Shown in pieces: positions 29,041 to 61,755 of a stretch of DNA of 64,000 nt (position 1 is the first letter of the stretch; the number at the start of each line of letters is the position of its first letter). Where the stretch lies: assembly GCA_001767455.1 (NCBI GenBank), contig MELC01000038.1:262581-326580 (forward strand), written 5' to 3'. The notes under the pieces were generated by a model. The model did no database searches and had not been told where the DNA came from. It saw only the letters and a list, made by a program, of their open reading frames with translations. This DNA comes from Acidobacteria bacterium RIFCSPLOWO2_12_FULL_66_21 (lineage in GTDB: Bacteria; Acidobacteriota; Vicinamibacteria; Vicinamibacterales; 2-12-FULL-66-21). Position numbers and translations under genes: made by a program.

Positions 29041-29065
29041 GGACGGATGCCGCCAGCGGCACTTC

Positions 29066-29092
29066 GTTACGCAGATTTAACATCTGCGCAAC
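29066..29092. promoter_or_regulatory. Inverted repeat upstream of the small peptide and pit genes
   Basis: GTTaCGCAGAT-ttaac-ATCTGCGcAAC pairs in 10 of 11 positions around a five-base centre. It lies 75 bases before the peptide ATG. It could be an operator or a transcribed hairpin; with no T-tract it is unlikely to be a terminator. Confidence 0.45.
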
Positions 29093-29167
29093 AGCGCCGA
29101 AATCCTGCGGCGGTAGCGTATCGAGGTACGCGGCCGGCTCGCACGACCGGTCCTGAAAGGAACCCTG

Positions 29168-29278
29168 ATGCTGGCCTTGACTGTGCTGATCGTGGCAACG
29201 GCCATCGTGGTGATTGTGATTGTCGCGATCTGGACCCGGAAGGGTCCCCCGCCTCCGCCGCCGGCGACGGGCGGATAA
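29168..29278 (+). CDS. Small single-pass membrane peptide
   Basis: This 36-residue peptide consists of one hydrophobic helix (MLALTVLIVATAIVVIVIVA) followed by I-W-T-R-K-G and a Pro-rich tail P-P-P-P-P-P-A-T-G-G. AGGA lies seven bases upstream of the ATG. The stop is 20 bases before the pit start, so it is probably co-transcribed with it. Small membrane peptides of this type often modulate an adjacent transporter; that role is inference here. Confidence 0.55.
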   Translation: MLALTVLIVATAIVVIVIVAIWTRKGPPPPPPATGG

Positions 29279-29298: not shown

Positions 29299-30312
29299 AT
29301 GGATACGAACCTGCTCGCCGTGATCGGGCTGATGGTCGTCGCGCTCAGCTTCGACTTCATCAACGGCTTTCACGACGCGGCCAATTCGATTGCGACCGTC
29401 GTGTCGACCCGGGTGCTCACGCCGGGGCGGGCGGTCGTCTGGGCCGCGTTCTTCAACTTCGTGGCGGCGTTTACGTTCGGGACCGCGGTGGCGAAGACGG
29501 TCGGCGCCGGCCTCGTCGACATCAACGTGGTCACCTTCGCCGTGATCTTCGCCGCCCTGATCGGCGCGATCGCCTGGGACCTGATCACGTGGTACTACGG
29601 GTTGCCGACCAGCTCGTCGCACGCGCTCATCGGCGGCTACGCCGGAGCCGCGGTGGCCAAGGCGGGCTTTGCCGCGATCATCCTGGCTGGCTGGACGAAG
29701 ACGCTGGTGTTCATCGTCCTCGCGCCGGTCATCGGGCTGATCCTCGCCTTCGGCCTGATGGTCGCGATCCTGTGGGTCTTCTCGCCTTTCTCGCCGGGAC
29801 GCGTCGATCACTGGTTCCGCCGGCTGCAGCTCGTGTCGGCCGCCGCGTATAGCCTCGGCCACGGGGGCAACGACGCGCAGAAGACGATGGGCATCATCGC
29901 CGGCGCGCTGGTCGCGGGCAATTACCTGCAGCTCGTCGACGGAAAGCTGACCATTCCGATCTGGGTCATCCTGGCGGCGCACGCCGCCATTGCGCTCGGC
30001 ACGCTGTCGGGCGGCTGGCGGATCATCCACACCATGGGGTCGAAGATCACCAAGCTGCAGCCGGTCGGCGGGTTTGCCGCGGAAACGGCGGGCGCCTTGT
30101 CGCTGTTCGGCGCGACGTACCTGGGGGTGCCCGTCAGCACGACACATACGATCACCGGGGCGATCATCGGCGTCGGATCGATCAGGCGGCTGTCGGCCGT
30201 CCGCTGGGGCATCGCCGGACGTATTGTCTGGGCCTGGGTCCTGACGATTCCCGCGGCGGCCGCCATCGGCGCGATCGTGTATTGGGCCACCGCGGCCCTC
30301 GTCGCGCCCTGA
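29299..30312 (+). CDS. pit: PiT family low-affinity phosphate transporter
   Basis: This 337-residue inner-membrane protein has about ten helices and the two PiT signatures: D-F-I-N-G-F-H-D-A-A-N-S-I-A in the first half and S-L-G-H-G-G-N-D-A-Q-K-T-M-G in the second. These inverted-repeat motifs form the phosphate and cation sites of Pi:Na+ or Pi:H+ symporters. The length matches the short bacterial group. The start is the ATG at 29299 with GGA upstream. PiT genes commonly follow a DUF47/PhoU-like gene, which is absent here. The high-affinity Pst system is encoded 23 kb away. Confidence 0.94.
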   Translation: MDTNLLAVIGLMVVALSFDFINGFHDAANSIATVVSTRVLTPGRAVVWAAFFNFVAAFTFGTAVAKTVGAGLVDINVVTFAVIFAALIGAIAWDLITWYYGLPTSSSHALIGGYAGAAVAKAGFAAIILAGWTKTLVFIVLAPVIGLILAFGLMVAILWVFSPFSPGRVDHWFRRLQLVSAAAYSLGHGGNDAQKTMGIIAGALVAGNYLQLVDGKLTIPIWVILAAHAAIALGTLSGGWRIIHTMGSKITKLQPVGGFAAETAGALSLFGATYLGVPVSTTHTITGAIIGVGSIRRLSAVRWGIAGRIVWAWVLTIPAAAAIGAIVYWATAALVAP

Positions 30313-53043: not shown

Positions 53044-53754
53044 TTAGCCGGCGTTGCCACGTGCGTCCCGCGTTTCTCCGTCCGCCGCGTGGTGCCGGAC
53101 GTCCCGCGCGTTGACGATGAAGATGACGTCTTCGGCGATGTTCGTGGCGTGGTCGCCGACGCGCTCCAGGTGGCGCGAGACGAGGATCAGATCGATGCCG
53201 GGCTCCACCGTGCGCGGCTCGCCGAGCATGTAGGTGAGCAGCTCTCGGAAGATCTGGTTCTTCAAGTCATCCAGCAGGTCGTCGCGATCGAGCACGCCCT
53301 GCGCCAGCGCGACGTCGCGCGAGACGAACGCGTCCAGCGCGTCGTGCAGCATCGCCTGCGCGAGCTCGGCCATGCGCGGAATATCCACGAGCGGCTTCAC
53401 CGGGGGATGTGTGGTGTACCGCTCGGCAGCTTCGGCAATGTTCACCGCGAGGTCGCCGACGCGCTCCAGATCGTTGTTGATCTTGACGGCCGCGACGATG
53501 GTCCGGAGGTCGCCGGCCATCGGCTGGTGCAGCGCCAGCAGCTTGAAGCAGCGATCGTCGATGTCGACGTGAAACCGGTTGATCTCGACGTCGCCGGCGA
53601 TGACGCCGGCCATCACGGAAGCCTCGCGCGTCACGAGGCCGTGCACCGCCAGGCGCAGGCGCTCTTCCGCGAGCCCGCCCATCATCAGCAGGCGCTGCTT
53701 CAGCCGATCGAGGTCCTCGGCAAAGTGCCGTGTGTCGTGCAGGTCCTGGCTCAT
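53044..53754 (-). CDS. phoU: Phosphate signalling protein PhoU
   Basis: This 236-residue protein has two PhoU three-helix repeats. Each carries the metal-binding E-x-x-x-D signature: N-N-D-L-E-R-V-G-D-L-A-V-N-I-A-E in the first and S-R-H-L-E-R-V-G-D-H-A-T-N-I-A-E in the second. PhoU links the Pst transporter to PhoR and represses the Pho response at high phosphate. It is the last gene of the operon, two bases after pstB. The C-terminal tail (R-H-H-A-A-D-G-E-T) is variable in the family. Confidence 0.96.
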   Translation of the reverse strand: MSQDLHDTRHFAEDLDRLKQRLLMMGGLAEERLRLAVHGLVTREASVMAGVIAGDVEINRFHVDIDDRCFKLLALHQPMAGDLRTIVAAVKINNDLERVGDLAVNIAEAAERYTTHPPVKPLVDIPRMAELAQAMLHDALDAFVSRDVALAQGVLDRDDLLDDLKNQIFRELLTYMLGEPRTVEPGIDLILVSRHLERVGDHATNIAEDVIFIVNARDVRHHAADGETRDARGNAG

Positions 53755-53756
53755 GG

Positions 53757-54596
53757 CTAACCAAACCGTCCTGTGACGTAATCGTCCGTCAGCTTCTCGC
53801 GGGGATTGGTGAACAGTTGTTCCGTCGGCGCCACTTCGACGAGCTTGCCGAGCCAGAAGAACGCCGTCACATCCGAGACACGCGCCGCCTGCTGCATGTT
53901 GTGCGTCACGATGACGATCGTGTAGTCGCGCTTCAGCTCGTAAATCAGCTCTTCGATGCGCTGCGTCGCGATCGGATCGAGCGCCGAGGCCGGTTCGTCC
54001 ATCAACAGCACGTCGGGCTGGACGGCGAGCGCGCGCGCGATGCAGAGCCGCTGCTGCTGTCCGCCCGACAGCGCCAGCGCGGATTCGTGGAGTCGATCCT
54101 TGACCTCGTCCCACAGCGCCGCGCGCCGCAGGCTCGCCTCGACGCGCTCACGGAGGTCGCCCCGCGACGAGGCCAGCCGATTCACGCGAATCCCGTACGC
54201 GACGTTGTCGAAATTGGACTTCGGGAACGGATTCGACCGCTGAAAGACCATGCCGACGCGGCGCCTGAGCGCGACGACGTCCACGCCGGCCGCGTAAATG
54301 TCCGCGCCGTCGAGCGTCACGCGTCCGGCAATCCGCGTCTTCGGCACGATGTCGTTCATTCGGTTCAAGGTGCGCAGGTACGTGGATTTGCCGCAGCCGG
54401 AGGGGCCGATCAACGCCGTCACCTGGTTCGATCCGATGTCCAGCGTGACGTCGTGCAGCGCCTGCTTCCCGCCATAGAACAGGCTGACGCGCTCGGTCGC
54501 GATCTTCACCGGGTGCGGCGATTCTGCCTCGGCGCCGGTGGCATGGCGCTCGACTCTCGGACGGGCGATGGGTGGGCTGGCCGTCACTCGGGTCAT
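53757..54596 (-). CDS. pstB: Phosphate ABC transporter ATPase PstB
   Basis: This 279-residue ABC ATPase has Walker [11 protein letters not shown]-loop F-Q-R-S-N-P-F-P, signature L-S-G-G-Q-Q-Q-R and Walker [13 protein letters not shown]. The L-R-T-L-N-R-M-N-D and P-F-P-K-S-N-F-D segments mark it as PstB rather than another importer ATPase. The first ~25 residues are a variable extension; a later start is possible. It lies four bases after pstA. Confidence 0.97.
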
Positions 54597-54600
54597 GTCC

Positions 54601-55464
54601 TCAACCGGGGGAAACGGCCGGACGCCGCACCATCACCCGCGCCGCGACGTTCGCGGTGAGCACGAGCGCGAGCAGCACGAGCGCCGCCGCCCAGGCCTGA
54701 CGGTGCCAGTCGTCGTACGGCGCGATCGCGTAGGTGAAGATCATCACGGGCAGCGACGCGGTCGGTTCCGTCCATCCGTGGCTCCAGAAGCGGTTGTTGA
54801 GCGCCGTGAAGAGCAGCGGCGCCGTCTCGCCGGCCACGCGCGCGAGGCCGAGCATGACCGCCGTCAGGATGCCGCGGCTCGCCGCCGGCACGACGACGCG
54901 CGCAATCGTGATCCATCTCGTGGCGCCGAGCGCGAGCGACGCCTCACGGAGCGACGGCGGGACCGCCCGCAGGAACTCCTCGGTCCCCCGCACCGTGACG
55001 GGGACCATCATGATCGCGAGCGCGACGCCGCCCGCGATCGTCGAGAAGTGGTGCATCGGCAGCACGACCAGCGTGTACGCCACGATGCCGATGACGATCG
55101 ACGGCACGCCGTTGAGCAGATCCGTCGCGTACCGCAGCGCGAAGGCTGGCCCCGGCGACGCGAATTCGGCGATGTAGAGGCCCGCCATGAATCCCAGCGG
55201 GACCCCGACGAGCGCCGCGAGCAGCAGCAGCTTGGCCGATCCGAGCAGCGCATTCGCCATTCCACCGCCCGGTTCTCCGACTGGTGTCGGCAGACGGGTG
55301 AAGAAGGCGAGGTTCAGGGACGACCCGCCTTGATACACGAGGTACCCCAGGACGAAGGCGAGCGCGGCCACGGTGAGCGCCGCGCACAGCGCCGTGGATC
55401 CGAGCATCAGCACGTTCACCGATCGCCGCCGCGCCGACGTCAAGGCCACCCGGTCGATCTTCAC
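54601..55464 (-). CDS. pstA: Phosphate ABC transporter permease PstA
   Basis: This 287-residue permease has six membrane helices and the PstA pattern [26 protein letters not shown] and the EAA-type loop [13 protein letters not shown]. It forms the channel with PstC. Its start overlaps the pstC stop (ATGA). Confidence 0.95.
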
Positions 55465-56399
55465 GCGGCCGTTCCCCGCCGCGTCGTCACGACGATGAGA
55501 ATGCGTGCGAAGGCGTTGACGATCATCGTCAGCAGGAACAGCACCAGGCCAATCTCGACCAGCGCGTGCAGGTACAGGTTTCCGGTCGCTTCCGTGAATT
55601 CATTCGCAATCACGGCCGCCATCGAATAGCCGGGAGCGAACAGCGACGCCGAGATCTCGGGACGGTTGCCAATCACCATCGTGACGGCCATCGTCTCCCC
55701 CAGCGCGCGACCGAGCGCGAGGAAGACGGCTCCGAAGACGCCCAGCCGCGCGTACGGCAGCACGACGCGCGCGGTGCTCTCCCAACGGGTCGAACCGAGC
55801 GCAAGCGCGGCCTCGCGCTGTTCGCGCGGCACGGCGAGCAGGACCTCGCGCACGACCGACACGATGAAGGGCACGATCATGATCGCCAGCACGAGGCCCG
55901 CCGTCAGGTACCCCACGCCATAGGCCGGCCCGGTGAAGACCGGAATCGATCCTGCAACGCGCTGGAGCGCCGGCTGGACGTACTGGCGCATGAGCGGCAC
56001 CAGCACGGCGACGCCAATCAGGCCGTACACGACGCTCGGCACCGCCGCCAGCAGCTCGATGACGAGCGTCAGCGCGTCGGAGATCCGCCGCGGGGCCAGC
56101 TCCGCAAGGAACAGCGCGGCGCCAATCCCGAGCGGGACGGCCACGATGAGCGCAATCGCGGAGGTGACGACGGTGCCGTAGATGAACGGCGCCGCGCCGT
56201 ACTGGTCGGCGACCGGATCCCAGGTCTGCCCCGTCAGAAAGCTCCAACCGAAGCGGTGACGCGCGAGCGACGAGTTGACGACCAGCTCGAACGCGACGAG
56301 CGTCGTCAGCAGCGCGAGCGTCAGCCCGAACAGCAGCGCCATCAGATGCGCGACCTCGTCGCCGTTCCGCAGCCGCGCCCGCCATCCGCCGGCCGGCAT
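55461..56399 (-). CDS. pstC: Phosphate ABC transporter permease PstC
   Basis: This 312-residue permease has six membrane helices with F-L-T-G-Q-T-W-D-P, L-L-A-A-V-P-S-V-V-Y-G-L-I-G and the EAA loop R-E-A-A-L-A-L-G-S-T-R-W. F-G-A-V-F-L-A-L-G-R-A-L-G-E-T-M-A-V-T-M-V-I-G-N is the PstC signature. It starts two bases after the pstS stop. Confidence 0.95.
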   Translation of the reverse strand: MPAGGWRARLRNGDEVAHLMALLFGLTLALLTTLVAFELVVNSSLARHRFGWSFLTGQTWDPVADQYGAAPFIYGTVVTSAIALIVAVPLGIGAALFLAELAPRRISDALTLVIELLAAVPSVVYGLIGVAVLVPLMRQYVQPALQRVAGSIPVFTGPAYGVGYLTAGLVLAIMIVPFIVSVVREVLLAVPREQREAALALGSTRWESTARVVLPYARLGVFGAVFLALGRALGETMAVTMVIGNRPEISASLFAPGYSMAAVIANEFTEATGNLYLHALVEIGLVLFLLTMIVNAFARILIVVTTRRGTAA

Positions 56400-56401
56400 C
56401 G

Positions 56402-57466
56402 TCAGGATCCCACGTGCACTTGCGCAATGGTCTGCCGCTCCTTGGCGACCACTTCTTTCGGGAGCGGCGCATAGGACAAGGGCGCGGCCATCGACTGGCC
56501 GTCGGCGAGCATCCACTGCAGGAAGTCGACAATCGCCTTGCCTCTGTTCTGATCGGCGATATGCGCCGGCACGAGCAGCCAGGTGAAGCTCGCGATTGGA
56601 TAGGCGTCGGGGCCGGCGGCGTTGGTGATCGACACGCGGAAGTCATCCGGCATCGTGGCGGCCGTCGCCGCGGCCGCGGCCGTGACGCCGGCCAGGTCGG
56701 CCTTGAGGAACGTTCCGGCCGCGTTCCGCACCGCCCCGTACGCGAGCTCGTTCTGGACGGCGTAAAGCAGCTCCACGTAGCCGATCGAATTCGGCGTCTG
56801 TTTCACGAGACCGGTCACCCCCTCATTGCCCTTGCCGCCAAGACCGACCGGCCAGTTCACCGAGCTGTTGCTGCCCACCCGCAACTTCCAAGCCGGGCTG
56901 ACCTTGCTCAGATAGTCGGTCCACACGAACGTCGTGCCGCTGCCGTCCGACCGGTGCACGACGACGATGTCGGAGGCCGGCAGGGTGATGCCGGCGTTCT
57001 CCCTGGCGATCGCCGGGTCGTTCCATTTCTTGATCGTGCCGAGGAAGATCCCGGCGAGCGCGTCCGGCGTGAAGTTCAGGTCCTGGGTAATCCCGGCCAC
57101 GTTGTAGGTCGGCACCACCGCGCCAAGCACCGTTGGAAAATGCAGGACCTTCACTTTCGCCTGGCCGAGCTGCTCGTCGGTCATGGGCATATCGCTCGCT
57201 CCGAAGTCCACCGTGCCGGCGAGCATCTGGCGAACGCCTGCGCCGGATCCCTGCGATTGGTAGTTGATCTCCACGCCGGGATGGCGCTTGTGGTACTCGT
57301 CGAACCACTTCGAATAGAGCGGATAGGGAAACGTCGCGCCGGCGCCGGTGACCGACACGCGTGCGCCGCTCGACGGCGTCGAAGCGGACGGTGGTTCACC
57401 CGGCTTGCCGCTGCAGGCGACGGCGGCTGCGGCAAGCGTCAGCACAAAGCCAATGCGTGTTTTCAT
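56402..57466 (-). CDS. pstS: Phosphate-binding protein PstS (lipoprotein)
   Basis: This ~354-residue periplasmic binding protein is preferred from the ATG at 57466, with GAGG six bases upstream; an ATG at 57472 is also in frame. The signal ends A-A-A-V-A-C-S, a lipobox-like site. Binding residues lie in G-A-G-A-T-F-P-Y-P-L-Y, Y-Q-S-Q-G-S-G-A-G-V, D-F-G-A-S-D-M-P-M and R-S-D-G-S-G-T-T-F-V-W-T-D-Y, all characteristic of PstS. The porin stop lies within ten bases upstream, so the two are coupled. Confidence 0.96.
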   Translation of the reverse strand: MKTRIGFVLTLAAAAVACSGKPGEPPSASTPSSGARVSVTGAGATFPYPLYSKWFDEYHKRHPGVEINYQSQGSGAGVRQMLAGTVDFGASDMPMTDEQLGQAKVKVLHFPTVLGAVVPTYNVAGITQDLNFTPDALAGIFLGTIKKWNDPAIARENAGITLPASDIVVVHRSDGSGTTFVWTDYLSKVSPAWKLRVGSNSSVNWPVGLGGKGNEGVTGLVKQTPNSIGYVELLYAVQNELAYGAVRNAAGTFLKADLAGVTAAAAATAATMPDDFRVSITNAAGPDAYPIASFTWLLVPAHIADQNRGKAIVDFLQWMLADGQSMAAPLSYAPLPKEVVAKERQTIAQVHVGS

Positions 57467-57474
57467 CTTCATCC

Positions 57475-58545
57475 TCAGAACTGAATGTGCGTCTGGAACA
57501 GGAGCCGGTTTTCGTCCGGTTTCTTCCGGCCGGCCTCGTAGCGCACGTCCTCGTCGTTGACGACGAAGCCGACGCGCGACTTCGACCATTTCAGCCAGTA
57601 CGCGACGCCCGCGATAATCCGGCGAGTGGAGTTGTCCGGCGTGGAGCGATCCGGATCGAAGCGGTCGACGCGCGCGATGGCCGCCCATCCTTCGAGCCCT
57701 TGCCTGACCTCGGCGAACACCGACGCGCCGCGCGGGTGCGTGTCGGCCGCTGGCGATGGCGGCCCTTCGGTGCCCGCGAGCCACTGCGCGGTGCCGGCGA
57801 AATAGGTGTGCTCGAAGCTCGCCATCACAATCCCGTGGCGGCGCGGATGGCCGCTGGAGTAGGACCCGAGATCGTAGAAGGCGGACAGTCGCAGCCCTTT
57901 GGCCAGGAGCGCGTCGGGAAACGGTCGAATCGTCGCTCGCCCTTGAAAGCTCTTGGCCTTGTTCGCCTCCGCTTTCGCGTATCCCTCGCCGTTGTAGACG
58001 CCCACATTGATCTCGCCGTAGCTGGACGGTAGCGGCGCGAGATAGCCGATGCCGAAGTCAGCCGAGCCCGGGATGACGCCTTCGCGTTCGGCAAACATCG
58101 GTCCCTGCACGCGGTAGCGATTGATGCTCTCTTCGAAGTCCAGCCACGGCGTCTGGTGGAGACCGAGCCGCAGCCACGACTTGTCGCCGAGGACGTTGTC
58201 AACCTGCGCGTACCCGTACTTCAAACGGAAGGTCAGGCTGCCTGCGAGGCTGCCGTCGGTGATGCGCCTGACGTCCGGCGTGATCCGGAAGCGCACGTTT
58301 TTCGCGACGTCGGCGACGATGTTGAGGTAACCGCGCGTGAGGTCGAATGCGTTGAACGCGTCGCGGTTCTTCAGCTCGCCGTCGTACTGCAGATAGCTCA
58401 GGCCCCCGACGGTCACCGTCGGGTAGGCCGGGTCCTGTGGTGCCGGCGTCGGCGGCGCCGGAGGTTGCGGTGTCTGCGCGGCGGCGAGAGCCGGACAGAC
58501 GAGAGCGGTGGCGAGCACCGTGATGCGCAGTCGTGAACGACTCAT
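57475..58545 (-). CDS. Phosphate-selective porin (OprP/OprO family)
   Basis: This 356-residue outer-membrane porin has a signal peptide ending L-A-A-A-Q, a short Pro-rich linker, then a beta-barrel. It has G-L-S-Y-L-Q-Y-D-G-E-L, F-D-L-T-R-G-Y-L-N-I and L-R-L-G-L-H-Q-T-P-W-L-D-F-E-E, and ends L-L-F-Q-T-H-I-Q-F with a terminal Phe. This block order matches OprP/OprO porins, which pass phosphate or pyrophosphate. As the first gene of the pst operon it supplies the outer-membrane step. A PHO-box-like array precedes it. Confidence 0.88.
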   Translation of the reverse strand: MSRSRLRITVLATALVCPALAAAQTPQPPAPPTPAPQDPAYPTVTVGGLSYLQYDGELKNRDAFNAFDLTRGYLNIVADVAKNVRFRITPDVRRITDGSLAGSLTFRLKYGYAQVDNVLGDKSWLRLGLHQTPWLDFEESINRYRVQGPMFAEREGVIPGSADFGIGYLAPLPSSYGEINVGVYNGEGYAKAEANKAKSFQGRATIRPFPDALLAKGLRLSAFYDLGSYSSGHPRRHGIVMASFEHTYFAGTAQWLAGTEGPPSPAADTHPRGASVFAEVRQGLEGWAAIARVDRFDPDRSTPDNSTRRIIAGVAYWLKWSKSRVGFVVNDEDVRYEAGRKKPDENRLLFQTHIQF

Positions 58546-58577
58546 GAGCGCATCGTAGACGGCTGGTTTTTCAGTGC

Positions 58578-58606
58578 TGTTGCAGGCGTGTTAATTCCGG
58601 GTAAAC
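58578..58606 (-). promoter_or_regulatory. PHO-box-like triple direct repeat
   Basis: On the minus strand GTTTACC, ATTAACA and TGCAACA occur at exact 11-bp steps (58606-58600, 58595-58589 and 58584-58578). One-turn-spaced direct repeats of this type are the binding mode of PhoB/PhoP regulators. The array ends 33 bases before the porin ATG. Confidence 0.65.
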
Positions 58607-58659
58607 AGATGCGCGAGCCTGGTGTGTCGAGCTGGCGGAACGAGAATTCGATAGGATGC

Positions 58660-58683
58660 AATTCACGAATTCACGAATTCACG
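58660..58683 (+). repeat. 8-bp tandem repeat AATTCACG x3
   Basis: Three exact AATTCACG units lie in the 219-base gap between the porin and the GH92 gene. Nothing else is seen in the gap apart from the PHO-box-like array and the GH92 ribosome site. Confidence 0.85.
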
Positions 58684-58764
58684 AACTTCCATTAGTGTCT
58701 CGACCAGAAGATCAGCACGACGAACAGCGCTGCCCCGGTCTGGCCCCAAGGAGGCGGTGAAACG

Positions 58765-61755
58765 ATGGTTCTGGAGTTGGGTAGAAGACGGCAAATCGTT
58801 GTTGCGCTGATTGTTACGGCAGCGTTCGGTATCGAGGGAACCGGCGCGTCCACCACGGCAGATGAAGGCCAGGCGCAACCTGCAGCCAGGCTCACGTCGT
58901 ACGTGAACCCGTTCATCGGCACCGGCGGGCACGGGCACACGTACCCGGGACCGTCGATGCCGTTCGGCATGATCCAGCCCGGACCGGATACGCGTCTCAC
59001 CGGGTGGGACGGGTGCTCCGGCTACCACTACAGCGACACGCGCATCTTCGGGTTCTCGCACACGCATCTGAGCGGCACCGGCATTCCCGACTATGCGGAC
59101 GTGCTCGTGATGCCGACGACGGGCGTCGCGCGGCTGCGTAACGGCGCGGACGGACAGCCTGGCTACGCCTCCTCGTTCAGCCACGACGACGAGGTCGCGG
59201 CGGCCGGCTATTACGCCGTCACGTTGAGGGATTACGGCATCCGCGCGGAGTTGACGGCGACGGTGCGCGCGGCGATGCACCGGTACACATTCCCCAGGGG
59301 ACACGCGTCGCACGTCGTGCTCGACCTCGAGCATCGCGACGAGGTGACGGACGCCTCCGTCGACATCGTGAGCGACACCGAGGTCACGGGCCTCCGGCGC
59401 TCGACCGGATGGGCGCGCGACCAGACGGTCTACTTCGCGCTGCGCTTCTCGCGCCCGTTCTCGTCGGGCGGGCTCGCGCTCGACGATCGGCTGGCTCCCG
59501 GCCGACGCAGCGCGCGCGGCAGCAAGCTGAAAGCGATCTTCGACTTCGGCGACGGCGGCGGATCGCTGCTTCTCAAGATCGGGATCTCCGCCGTGAGCGC
59601 CGACGGTGCGCGCACGAACCTCGACACGGAGCTGGCCGGCTGGGATTTCGACGCGGCGCGCCAGGCGGCTGACGCCGCCTGGGAAGCGGAGCTGTCGAAG
59701 ATCCGCGTCGAAGGAGGCACGCGCGACGAGCGCGTCAGGTTCTACTCGGCGCTCTATCATTCCATGCTCACGCCGAACGTCTACATGGACGCGGACGGGC
59801 GCTATCGCGGCCGCGATCAGAAGATTCACACGGCCGAGGGCTTCACCTACTACACGGTCTTCTCGCTCTGGGACACGTTCCGGGCGCTGCACCCGCTGCT
59901 GGCGATCGTCGATCGCGCGCGCACGCGCGACTTCGTGCAGACGTTCCTCCGGCAATACCGGGAAGGCGGACGGCTGCCGGTGTGGGAGCTGGCGGCGAAC
60001 GAAACCGACACGATGATCGGCTACCACGCGGTGCCGGTCATCGCCGACGCCATCGCGAAAGGGATCGACGGCTTCGATCGCGAGCTGGCATTCGCCGCCA
60101 TGAAGCACAGCGCCGAGGAGGATCGCCTCGGGCTGGCCGCCTACAAGCGCGACGGCTTCATCGACGGGCGTGAGGAATCCGAGAGCGTCTCGCGCACGCT
60201 GGAGTATGGCTACGACGACTGGACGATCGCGCAGGTGGCGCGCCGGCTCGGCCACGCGGATGACCACGCGCGCTACGTTCGCCGCGCGCAGGCCTACAAG
60301 CACCTCTTCGATCCATCCACGGGGTTCATGCGCGCGCGCGTGGACGGCTTCTGGCTCTCACCGTTCGATCCGAGCGAGGTCAACAACTACTACACCGAGG
60401 GGAACGCCTGGCAATACAGTTTCTTCGTGCCGCACGACGTCGAAGGCCTCATGCGCCTGATGGGCGGCCCCGGGCGGTTCGCGCGGAAGCTCGATGATTT
60501 GTTCTCCGCGAGCAGCAAGACGACCGGGCGCGAGCAGGCGGACATCACCGGCCTCATCGGCCAGTACGCGCACGGCAACGAGCCGAGCCACCACATGGCG
60601 TACCTCTATGCGTACGCGGGCCAGCCCTGGAAGACCCAGGAGATGGCACGCCGCATCGTCGACACGCTGTATGGATCGGGGCCCGACGGGCTCGCGGGCA
60701 ACGAGGACTGCGGGCAGATGAGCGCGTGGTACGTGCTGAGCGCAATGGGCTTCTACCCGGTGACCCCGGGCTCGACAGAGTACGTCGTCGGAAGCCCGCT
60801 GTTCGAGCGCGCGACCATCCGGCTGGAGAGCGGCCGCGAGTTCACCATCCGCGCGCGCGGCGTGTCGGCCGCGGCAAAGTACGTTCAGCGGGCGACGCTG
60901 AACGGATCGCCTTACGACAAGGCGTTTCTCGATCACGACACCATTGCCGCCGGCGGCGAAATCGTGTTCGACATGGGCACTTCGCCGAACACCGGCTGGG
61001 GCTCTCGCCCATCGTCGCGCCCGCGCGCCGCCATCGAGGACGGCCTCGTCGTGGGCGCGCCATTCATCGCGAGCGGCAGACAGTTGTTTCGTGGCACACA
61101 GGAGGTGACGCTCGGCGCCGCGGCAACGGGCGCGGAGATTCGCTACACGGTTGACGGCAGCGCGCCGGGCGCGGCGTCCCCCCGCTACGCCCGCCCTGTC
61201 ACCGTGAGCGACAGCATCACCCTTCGAGCCGTCGCGCATCACTCCGGAGCATCGAGCCCGGCCATCACCGCGGTCTTCCGCCGCCTACCCGAGTACCCGC
61301 GGATTGCCCTGAGCGCGCGCTATGCGCCGCAGTATGGCGCGGGAGGCGACGACGCGCTCGTCGACGGACTGCGGGGCAACAACAACTTCAGGGTCGGACG
61401 GTGGCAGGGCTATCTTGGGACCGGCCTCGACGCGACGCTCGACTTCGGCGCGCCGCGCGAGATCCGCCACGTGGCCATGGGGTTCCTGCAGGACGCCGGC
61501 TCGTGGATCCTCATGCCGCGCCGCGTCGTCGTTCTCGCGTCCGACGACGGAGTGGCGTACAGGTCCGTCGGTGAGATCGCGAACACCGTCCCGGAGCGCG
61601 AGATGACTCCCGTGACCCGGGATTTCGCGCTCGACGTCGCCGTGCGGGCGCGCTTCATCCGCCTGCACGTGGAGCGCTACGGCAAGCTGCCCGAGTGGCA
61701 CCCCGGCGCCGGGAACGAGGCGTGGTTCTTCGCCGATGAGATCGTGTTCCGCTGA
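58765..61755 (+). CDS. GH92 alpha-mannosidase with chitobiase-like and F5/8C-like domains
   Basis: This 996-residue secreted glycosidase starts at the ATG behind AGGAGG. A signal peptide covers about 1-29. The GH92 domain (about 45-770) has V-N-P-F-I-G-T-G-G-H-G-H-T-Y-P-G-P, A-N-E-T-D-T-M-I-G-Y-H-A-V-P-V, the calcium-site G-N-E-P-S-H-H-M and G-N-E-D-C-G-Q-M-S-A-W. A chitobiase C-terminal-like module follows (I-R-Y-T-V-D-G-S-A-P), then a discoidin-type carbohydrate-binding domain to the end. GH92 enzymes are calcium-dependent exo-alpha-mannosidases acting on alpha-1,2-, 1,3- or other linkages. It is monocistronic. Confidence 0.95.
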   Translation: MVLELGRRRQIVVALIVTAAFGIEGTGASTTADEGQAQPAARLTSYVNPFIGTGGHGHTYPGPSMPFGMIQPGPDTRLTGWDGCSGYHYSDTRIFGFSHTHLSGTGIPDYADVLVMPTTGVARLRNGADGQPGYASSFSHDDEVAAAGYYAVTLRDYGIRAELTATVRAAMHRYTFPRGHASHVVLDLEHRDEVTDASVDIVSDTEVTGLRRSTGWARDQTVYFALRFSRPFSSGGLALDDRLAPGRRSARGSKLKAIFDFGDGGGSLLLKIGISAVSADGARTNLDTELAGWDFDAARQAADAAWEAELSKIRVEGGTRDERVRFYSALYHSMLTPNVYMDADGRYRGRDQKIHTAEGFTYYTVFSLWDTFRALHPLLAIVDRARTRDFVQTFLRQYREGGRLPVWELAANETDTMIGYHAVPVIADAIAKGIDGFDRELAFAAMKHSAEEDRLGLAAYKRDGFIDGREESESVSRTLEYGYDDWTIAQVARRLGHADDHARYVRRAQAYKHLFDPSTGFMRARVDGFWLSPFDPSEVNNYYTEGNAWQYSFFVPHDVEGLMRLMGGPGRFARKLDDLFSASSKTTGREQADITGLIGQYAHGNEPSHHMAYLYAYAGQPWKTQEMARRIVDTLYGSGPDGLAGNEDCGQMSAWYVLSAMGFYPVTPGSTEYVVGSPLFERATIRLESGREFTIRARGVSAAAKYVQRATLNGSPYDKAFLDHDTIAAGGEIVFDMGTSPNTGWGSRPSSRPRAAIEDGLVVGAPFIASGRQLFRGTQEVTLGAAATGAEIRYTVDGSAPGAASPRYARPVTVSDSITLRAVAHHSGASSPAITAVFRRLPEYPRIALSARYAPQYGAGGDDALVDGLRGNNNFRVGRWQGYLGTGLDATLDFGAPREIRHVAMGFLQDAGSWILMPRRVVVLASDDGVAYRSVGEIANTVPEREMTPVTRDFALDVAVRARFIRLHVERYGKLPEWHPGAGNEAWFFADEIVFR

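Follow-up and report, generated by a model that had tools for sequence, protein, structure and literature searches.

The window, the whole stretch of 64,000 nucleotides of acidobacterial DNA analysed here, raises the question of whether three short repeats in front of a phosphate-transport operon form a genuine phosphate-starvation control site (Pho box), and which protein would read it. The operon lies on the minus strand and is composed of an outer-membrane porin gene (57475–58545), pstS (56402–57472; TIGR00975, 390.5 bits, cut-off 205), pstC (55461–56399; TIGR02138, 302.8 bits, cut-off 196.45), pstA (54601–55464; TIGR00974, 264.8 bits, cut-off 193.45), pstB (53757–54596; TIGR00972, 398.7 bits, cut-off 343.2) and phoU (53044–53754; TIGR02135, 220.2 bits, cut-off 130.25), its start placed from the matched region, which opens at residue 130 of a longer frame. 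The last five genes exceed their NCBIfam cut-offs, and the operon agrees with the porin-led pst operon recognized in an earlier, sequence-only reading of this DNA. The porin itself has no Pfam match to Porin_O_P (PF07396), to which four of nine aligned family members match weakly (best E 0.0038), and its low-confidence structure model (pLDDT 61.6) matches solved porins, including OprP. Eight of its nine named relatives come from acidobacterial metagenome-assembled genomes, which makes an acidobacterial source very probable; the order is probably Vicinamibacterales.

The three repeats of the sequence-only reading, GTTTACC (58600–58606), ATTAACA (58589–58595) and TGCAACA (58578–58584), identified by position and motif score on the minus strand, follow one another at a pitch of exactly 11 bp across 58578–58606, as that reading had claimed. 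Its placement of the repeats before the porin ATG also holds, with a spacing of 32 bases from the last named repeat instead of 33. A weaker fourth repeat, TGAAAAA (58567–58573, minus), which the same reading lacked, is in phase with the other three and corresponds to GAAAC in relatives, so that direct repeats of about 7–8 bp at an 11-bp pitch, at least two of which characterize a Pho box, are present as four units both in the window and in its relatives. The repeats are followed by a −10 element, TACGAT (58552–58557, minus), 10 bp past the 40-bp box, and the porin ATG (58543–58545) begins 6 nt further on; a sigma-70 −35/−10 pair was not found in 58400–58800. The setting is intergenic, with the porin gene on one side and a divergent GH92 gene on the other; between the box and the GH92 gene lies a perfect 8-bp tandem array, AATTCACG, of 3.2 copies (58660–58685). 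At two places in the window (both strands, 128 kb), a loose, degenerate version of the triple is present with the 11-bp pitch, and the triplet taken alone is therefore weak evidence.

Stronger evidence was obtained from relatives of the porin. An alignment-free motif search was carried out on 33 upstream regions, with the window's own row (L009), three duplicates (L039, L043 and L046), a row with a short upstream region (L045) and one from another phylum (L047) left out of training. A single 40-bp motif, roughly AnTTAAC n6 GTAACA n5 GAnnC n6 GAAAC, was recovered in 30 of these regions and was missing from L012, L026 and L044, the last of which has a partly masked upstream region. Scored with this motif, from which the window copy was excluded, the porin promoter (58568–58607, minus) reaches 31.5 bits, compared with a best score of 18.0 bits (mean 5.5, s.d. 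3.8) when the whole window was dinucleotide-shuffled 40 times. Beyond the porin site, a second site before pit described below, and the shifted and reverse-strand echoes of both, the next-best place in the window scores 0.8 bits.

The distance between box and −10 element is largely fixed. Of the 30 training sites, 24 have a TA exactly 50 bp past the start of the motif, extending to TAnnnT in 21, whereas each of the other scanned offsets accounts for at most four sites; the −10 columns lie outside the 40-bp motif by which the training sites were placed. With this fixed offset the box ends 10 bp before the −10, so that the full layout comprises four 7-mers with a pitch of 11 bp, a spacing of 10 bp and TAnnnT. 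Activators of the PhoB type take the place of a −35 element, and by analogy the layout is that of an activator standing in for the −35. The same 10 bp upstream of TAN3T/A is described for E. coli Pho boxes (PMC1906773). A site of this kind could instead serve a repressor or be bound silently, and transcriptionally inert PhoB sites are described as common inside E. coli genes (PMC10294691); the strict box-to-(−10) spacing and the absent −35 are, however, what an activator needs, and the acidobacterial sites lie upstream of genes, leaving this alternative a slim chance.

Wider searches used R1, a sequence-only model built from aligned sites and spanning 59 positions including the −10, which biases its matches towards sites that have a −10; ‘order’ and ‘family’ below are computed kinship labels. 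In the genome that contains the window (6.475 Mb, 91 contigs), R1 gave five matches at E ≤ 10, although short models of this kind give only rough E-values and, with 150 of 1,372 first-look candidates scored, weak sites will have been missed. The top three lie at phosphate loci: before pit, before the porin–pst operon, and on contig C5 beside a DUF47–pit2 pair and genes for a PhoB/PhoR-like pair. The other two look spurious and were rejected as noise, one on C83 that precedes a pectate lyase gene in a cacggatt-like stretch and one on C7 with an E of 8.3.

Among 31 genomes of the order without a match to the window porin, 26 carry R1 sites, 59 in all, and a decoy with reversed rows, which keeps pitch and information content, found none in the 31. 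To assign the genes downstream, tblastn with the source genome's own proteins and Pfam were used (pit through a Pit2 query). The 59 independent sites precede pst genes (18), PhoB-like regulator genes (12), Porin_O_P genes (5) and a glycerophosphodiesterase (GDPD) gene (1), together 36 sites, and otherwise genes for TonB-type receptors, or for receptor fragments that have a carboxypeptidase-regulatory-like domain (10), a glycosyltransferase gene (1) and genes with no family or outside Pfam testing (12). A lack of enrichment before phosphate genes, the outcome that the sequence-only reading had named as refuting its proposal of a PHO-box-like site ahead of the operon, was not observed; motif comparison and the placement of the sites both support that proposal. 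The TonB-type receptors, which carry carboxypeptidase-regulatory-like and plug domains (L067, L073, L075, L086, L104, L116 and others), possibly take up organic phosphate compounds. Two large proteins encoded behind some of the strongest boxes (L106:10637–11988 and L090:1137–2585) share the segment SPLTIHIGD/SPLAIHVGD and have no Pfam match.

Across the phylum, a scan with stricter filters matched 17 of 149 genomes, 12 of them in the order (source genome included), which contributes at least 14 of the 149, and 5 outside it; pst genes lie within the 1.5-kb flanks in three of these five and are missing there from the other two. Motif discovery upstream of pstS at 30 loci of other lineages returned no common box; by eye, some of these loci carry degenerate 11-bp repeats, and the order's motif reaches at least 30 bits at one of the 30, on the opposite strand.

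Coincidence, by which three loosely similar 7-mers merely happened to be in phase, could point to the two loose triplets in the window, but it is scarcely credible against the conservation in relatives, the independent recovery of a box before pit, the sites in 26 of 31 genomes and the empty decoy. That the repeats constitute a genuine site of phosphate-starvation control, common to a large acidobacterial group, is very probable. On sequence criteria, the three testable features of a Pho box are present, and the site is Pho-box-like by its architecture and genomic context.

In many of these promoters the distance from the −10 to the coding sequence is also restricted. At 21 of the 59 sites, an ATG that begins an open frame of 100 codons or more stands 6 or 7 nt past the −10 (13 and 8 sites, respectively), and every other distance up to 59 nt is represented at no more than three. 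An ATG at this distance coincides with the expected transcription start, so that mRNAs from such sites are probably leaderless; the spacing predicts the same for the window porin mRNA, which is probably leaderless too, and it recurs in a single training porin out of 30. For Acidobacteria, PMC3160421 reports predictions of leaderless genes with TANNNT signals, averaging 13.3% in three genomes; the phenomenon is therefore known, and it is its frequency at Pho promoters that stands out.

The scan before pit that the sequence-only reading had proposed yielded a second strong box of four repeats (29064–29103, plus), which scores 32.7 bits and is the best R1 match in the whole genome (E 2.1e-4). Its −10 element, TAGCGT (29114–29119, plus), lies at the same offset as that of the porin promoter. 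The gene itself (29299–30312, plus) encodes a 337-residue protein that we take, from its sequence, to be a Pit-type phosphate transporter, with matches of 81–85% identity in six further genomes of the family. Between box and pit is an open reading frame for 36 residues (29168–29278, plus), an unproven gene whose product would have a single membrane span and a proline tail; it occupies the place of DUF47 in relatives, and no convincing homologue was found in the related loci examined. The window pit is the sole one of 12 pit loci, from 11 genomes, with an own-strand box of at least 12 bits, a threshold below the window shuffle maximum of 18 that makes weaker opposite-strand boxes at pit loci unsure.

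Comparison within the family suggests how this arrangement may have come about. In three genomes (G002, G004 and G010), DUF47–pit is divergent from porin–pstS with the box between them. On C5 of the source genome are DUF47 and pit2, the latter matching only residues 1–208 of 337, and a box of 31.1 bits (L061:6917–6967; G000 C5:88916–88966, minus) occupies approximately the place, and has the orientation, of the family's porin–pst promoter. There is no porin–pst gene at this position, and TCTGTC stands where the −10 would be expected; the box is a probable fossil operator beside a shortened pit2. The window porin is 67% and 63% identical to those of genomes from two other families and 39–44% identical to those of its own, and the window PstS is closest to that of G052 (71%). 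This greater closeness to other families suggests that a divergent copy displaced the earlier porin–pst operon, or that the operon was transferred.

The search for a PhoB/PhoP regulator, also proposed in the sequence-only reading, led to C5. Among the 15 Trans_reg_C matches in the source genome, the C5 regulator P0002 is encoded before a kinase gene. PhoB (TIGR02154) is its best NCBIfam model, at 224.9 bits and below the cut-off of 296.2, and a different regulator of the genome slightly exceeds it against that model (231.7 bits); the kinase scores 295.3 bits against PnpS (cut-off 400), 282.9 against WalK and 275.4 against PhoR (TIGR02966, cut-off 334.2). A candidate pair is present at a phosphate locus, and since neither protein reaches an equivalog cut-off they are named PhoB-like and PhoR-like. 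The closest sequence to P0002 among solved structures is RegX3 of M. tuberculosis, and its recognition helix, RTVDVHVRRLR, closely matches the RTVDVHIRRLR of E. coli PhoB. Close orthologues (62–69% identity) are present in 25 of the 31 genomes, 24 of which also have boxes, compared with 2 of the 6 lacking one (Fisher p 0.002); this association may reflect no more than whether a genome has a Pho system at all. No box was detected upstream of the close orthologues themselves, for which the best scores are negative at each of the 24 loci that could be scanned and likewise in the source genome.

A second PhoB-like paralogue, PhoB2 (48–53% identity), forms a separate clade of 16 rows with 100/100 support. 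In many genomes of the order its genes, encoding the helix ETRSVDVHxGRLR, lie behind Pho boxes of their own (L094, L105, L106, L111, L116, L119, L122, L123 and others). The box could accordingly be read mainly by another OmpR-family regulator such as PhoB2, with the C5 protein not the main binder: 12 of the 59 boxes precede PhoB2 genes, and genome G029 has boxes and PhoB2 without a close orthologue of the C5 regulator. Yet the source genome has strong boxes and none of the regulators examined in it is a PhoB2 (0 of the 8 others placed in the tree joins the clade), and the C5-type orthologue accompanies boxes in nearly every genome that encodes it, so that a main role for such a regulator is unlikely. 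The likely binder, as far as sequence comparison indicates, is the PhoB-like regulator beside the PhoR-like kinase on C5.

The features observed here, namely the repeats, their conservation, the fixed −10 distance, the placement before phosphate genes and the regulator pair, fit a mechanism of the following kind. When phosphate is scarce, the PhoR-like kinase would phosphorylate the PhoB-like response regulator, which would bind the tandem repeats head to tail, one helical turn apart. The bound protein would replace the missing −35 contact and recruit sigma-70 polymerase to the −10, switching on porin–pstSCAB–phoU and, through the second site, pit. In all likelihood, the sites before porin–pst and pit are PhoB-type operators joined to activator-dependent promoters.

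In its letters the box departs from the Pho boxes that are known best. Each of five repeat words, three taken from published work and two of the Bacillus type, was scored against the order's motif in every register, with permutations of its own letters for comparison. GTTCACC scored −1.7 bits, with 233 of 420 permutations as good, and CTGTCAT −0.7 bits, with 179 of 420 as good; the SphR repeat CTTAACCT reached 16.6 bits (13 of 560), the best of the published consensus words scored. The impression in the sequence-only reading that the box is more like that of actinobacteria than that of E. coli was therefore not borne out, both words being at chance level and CTTAACCT fitting instead; it is traceable to GTTTACC being one letter from GTTCACC. 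The word TTAACA reached 22.7 bits at repeats 1 and 2 (2 of 60 permutations as good), and TTTACA, likewise a Bacillus word, also fits. The PhoP box of Bacillus subtilis is of the TTAACA type, resembling acidobacterial repeats 1 and 2 in this respect.

As at the acidobacterial box, the pst operon is a PhoB target in E. coli. The E. coli box, with the consensus CTGTCAT given in PMC4415409 and PMC1906773, resembles the acidobacterial one in its tandem 11-bp units, its last base 10 bp before TAnnnT and the nearly identical recognition helix of its regulator, whereas its letters fit only at permutation level and four units are the standing form in the acidobacterial box. An 11-bp pitch is reported in PMC4415409 as common to actinobacterial and E. 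coli boxes. For Streptomyces PhoP, the accounts in PMC4415409 and PMC7866108 describe direct repeat units of 11 nt with the word GTTCACC, four at some promoters; the unit length is shared, but the word mismatches the order-wide motif. Control of pitH2 by PhoP, with pap–pitH1 lacking PHO boxes (as stated in PMC7866108), parallels the boxed window pit without DUF47. The cyanobacterial SphR box, described in PMC1906773 as three or more 8-bp repeats in tandem, joined by 3-bp linkers, shares the 11-bp pitch, the three or more repeats and the TTAAC core; it differs in that acidobacterial repeats 3 and 4 are GAnnC and GAAAC, in phylum and regulator, and in the many acidobacterial promoters with probable leaderless starts. 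A search of the open-access literature found no report of a Pho box for Acidobacteriota or Vicinamibacter.

Since the C5 regulator and E. coli PhoB have near-identical helices and differently lettered boxes, the helix alone leaves the letter difference unexplained, and the pair offers a clean case for studying the source of PhoB specificity. Taken jointly, the results allow a tentative reading, held at somewhat less than even odds, of an order-specific operator, a two-tier circuit and a rewired source genome. If it is true, a rigid box of four repeats would be hard-wired to the −10, with the mRNA often starting at the ATG, and would be read by two PhoB-like paralogues, one encoded by an unboxed gene and one by a boxed gene, in a regulon extending to TonB-type receptors. 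The family's old pst promoter would survive as a fossil in the source genome, where a divergent porin–pst operon took over and pit gained a box. Acidobacteriota are abundant in soil, and the 59-position operator model is searchable, so that their phosphate genes would become readable from genomes and metagenomes; it also predicts transcription starts and marks new candidates, among them the TonB-type receptors and unnamed outer-membrane proteins.
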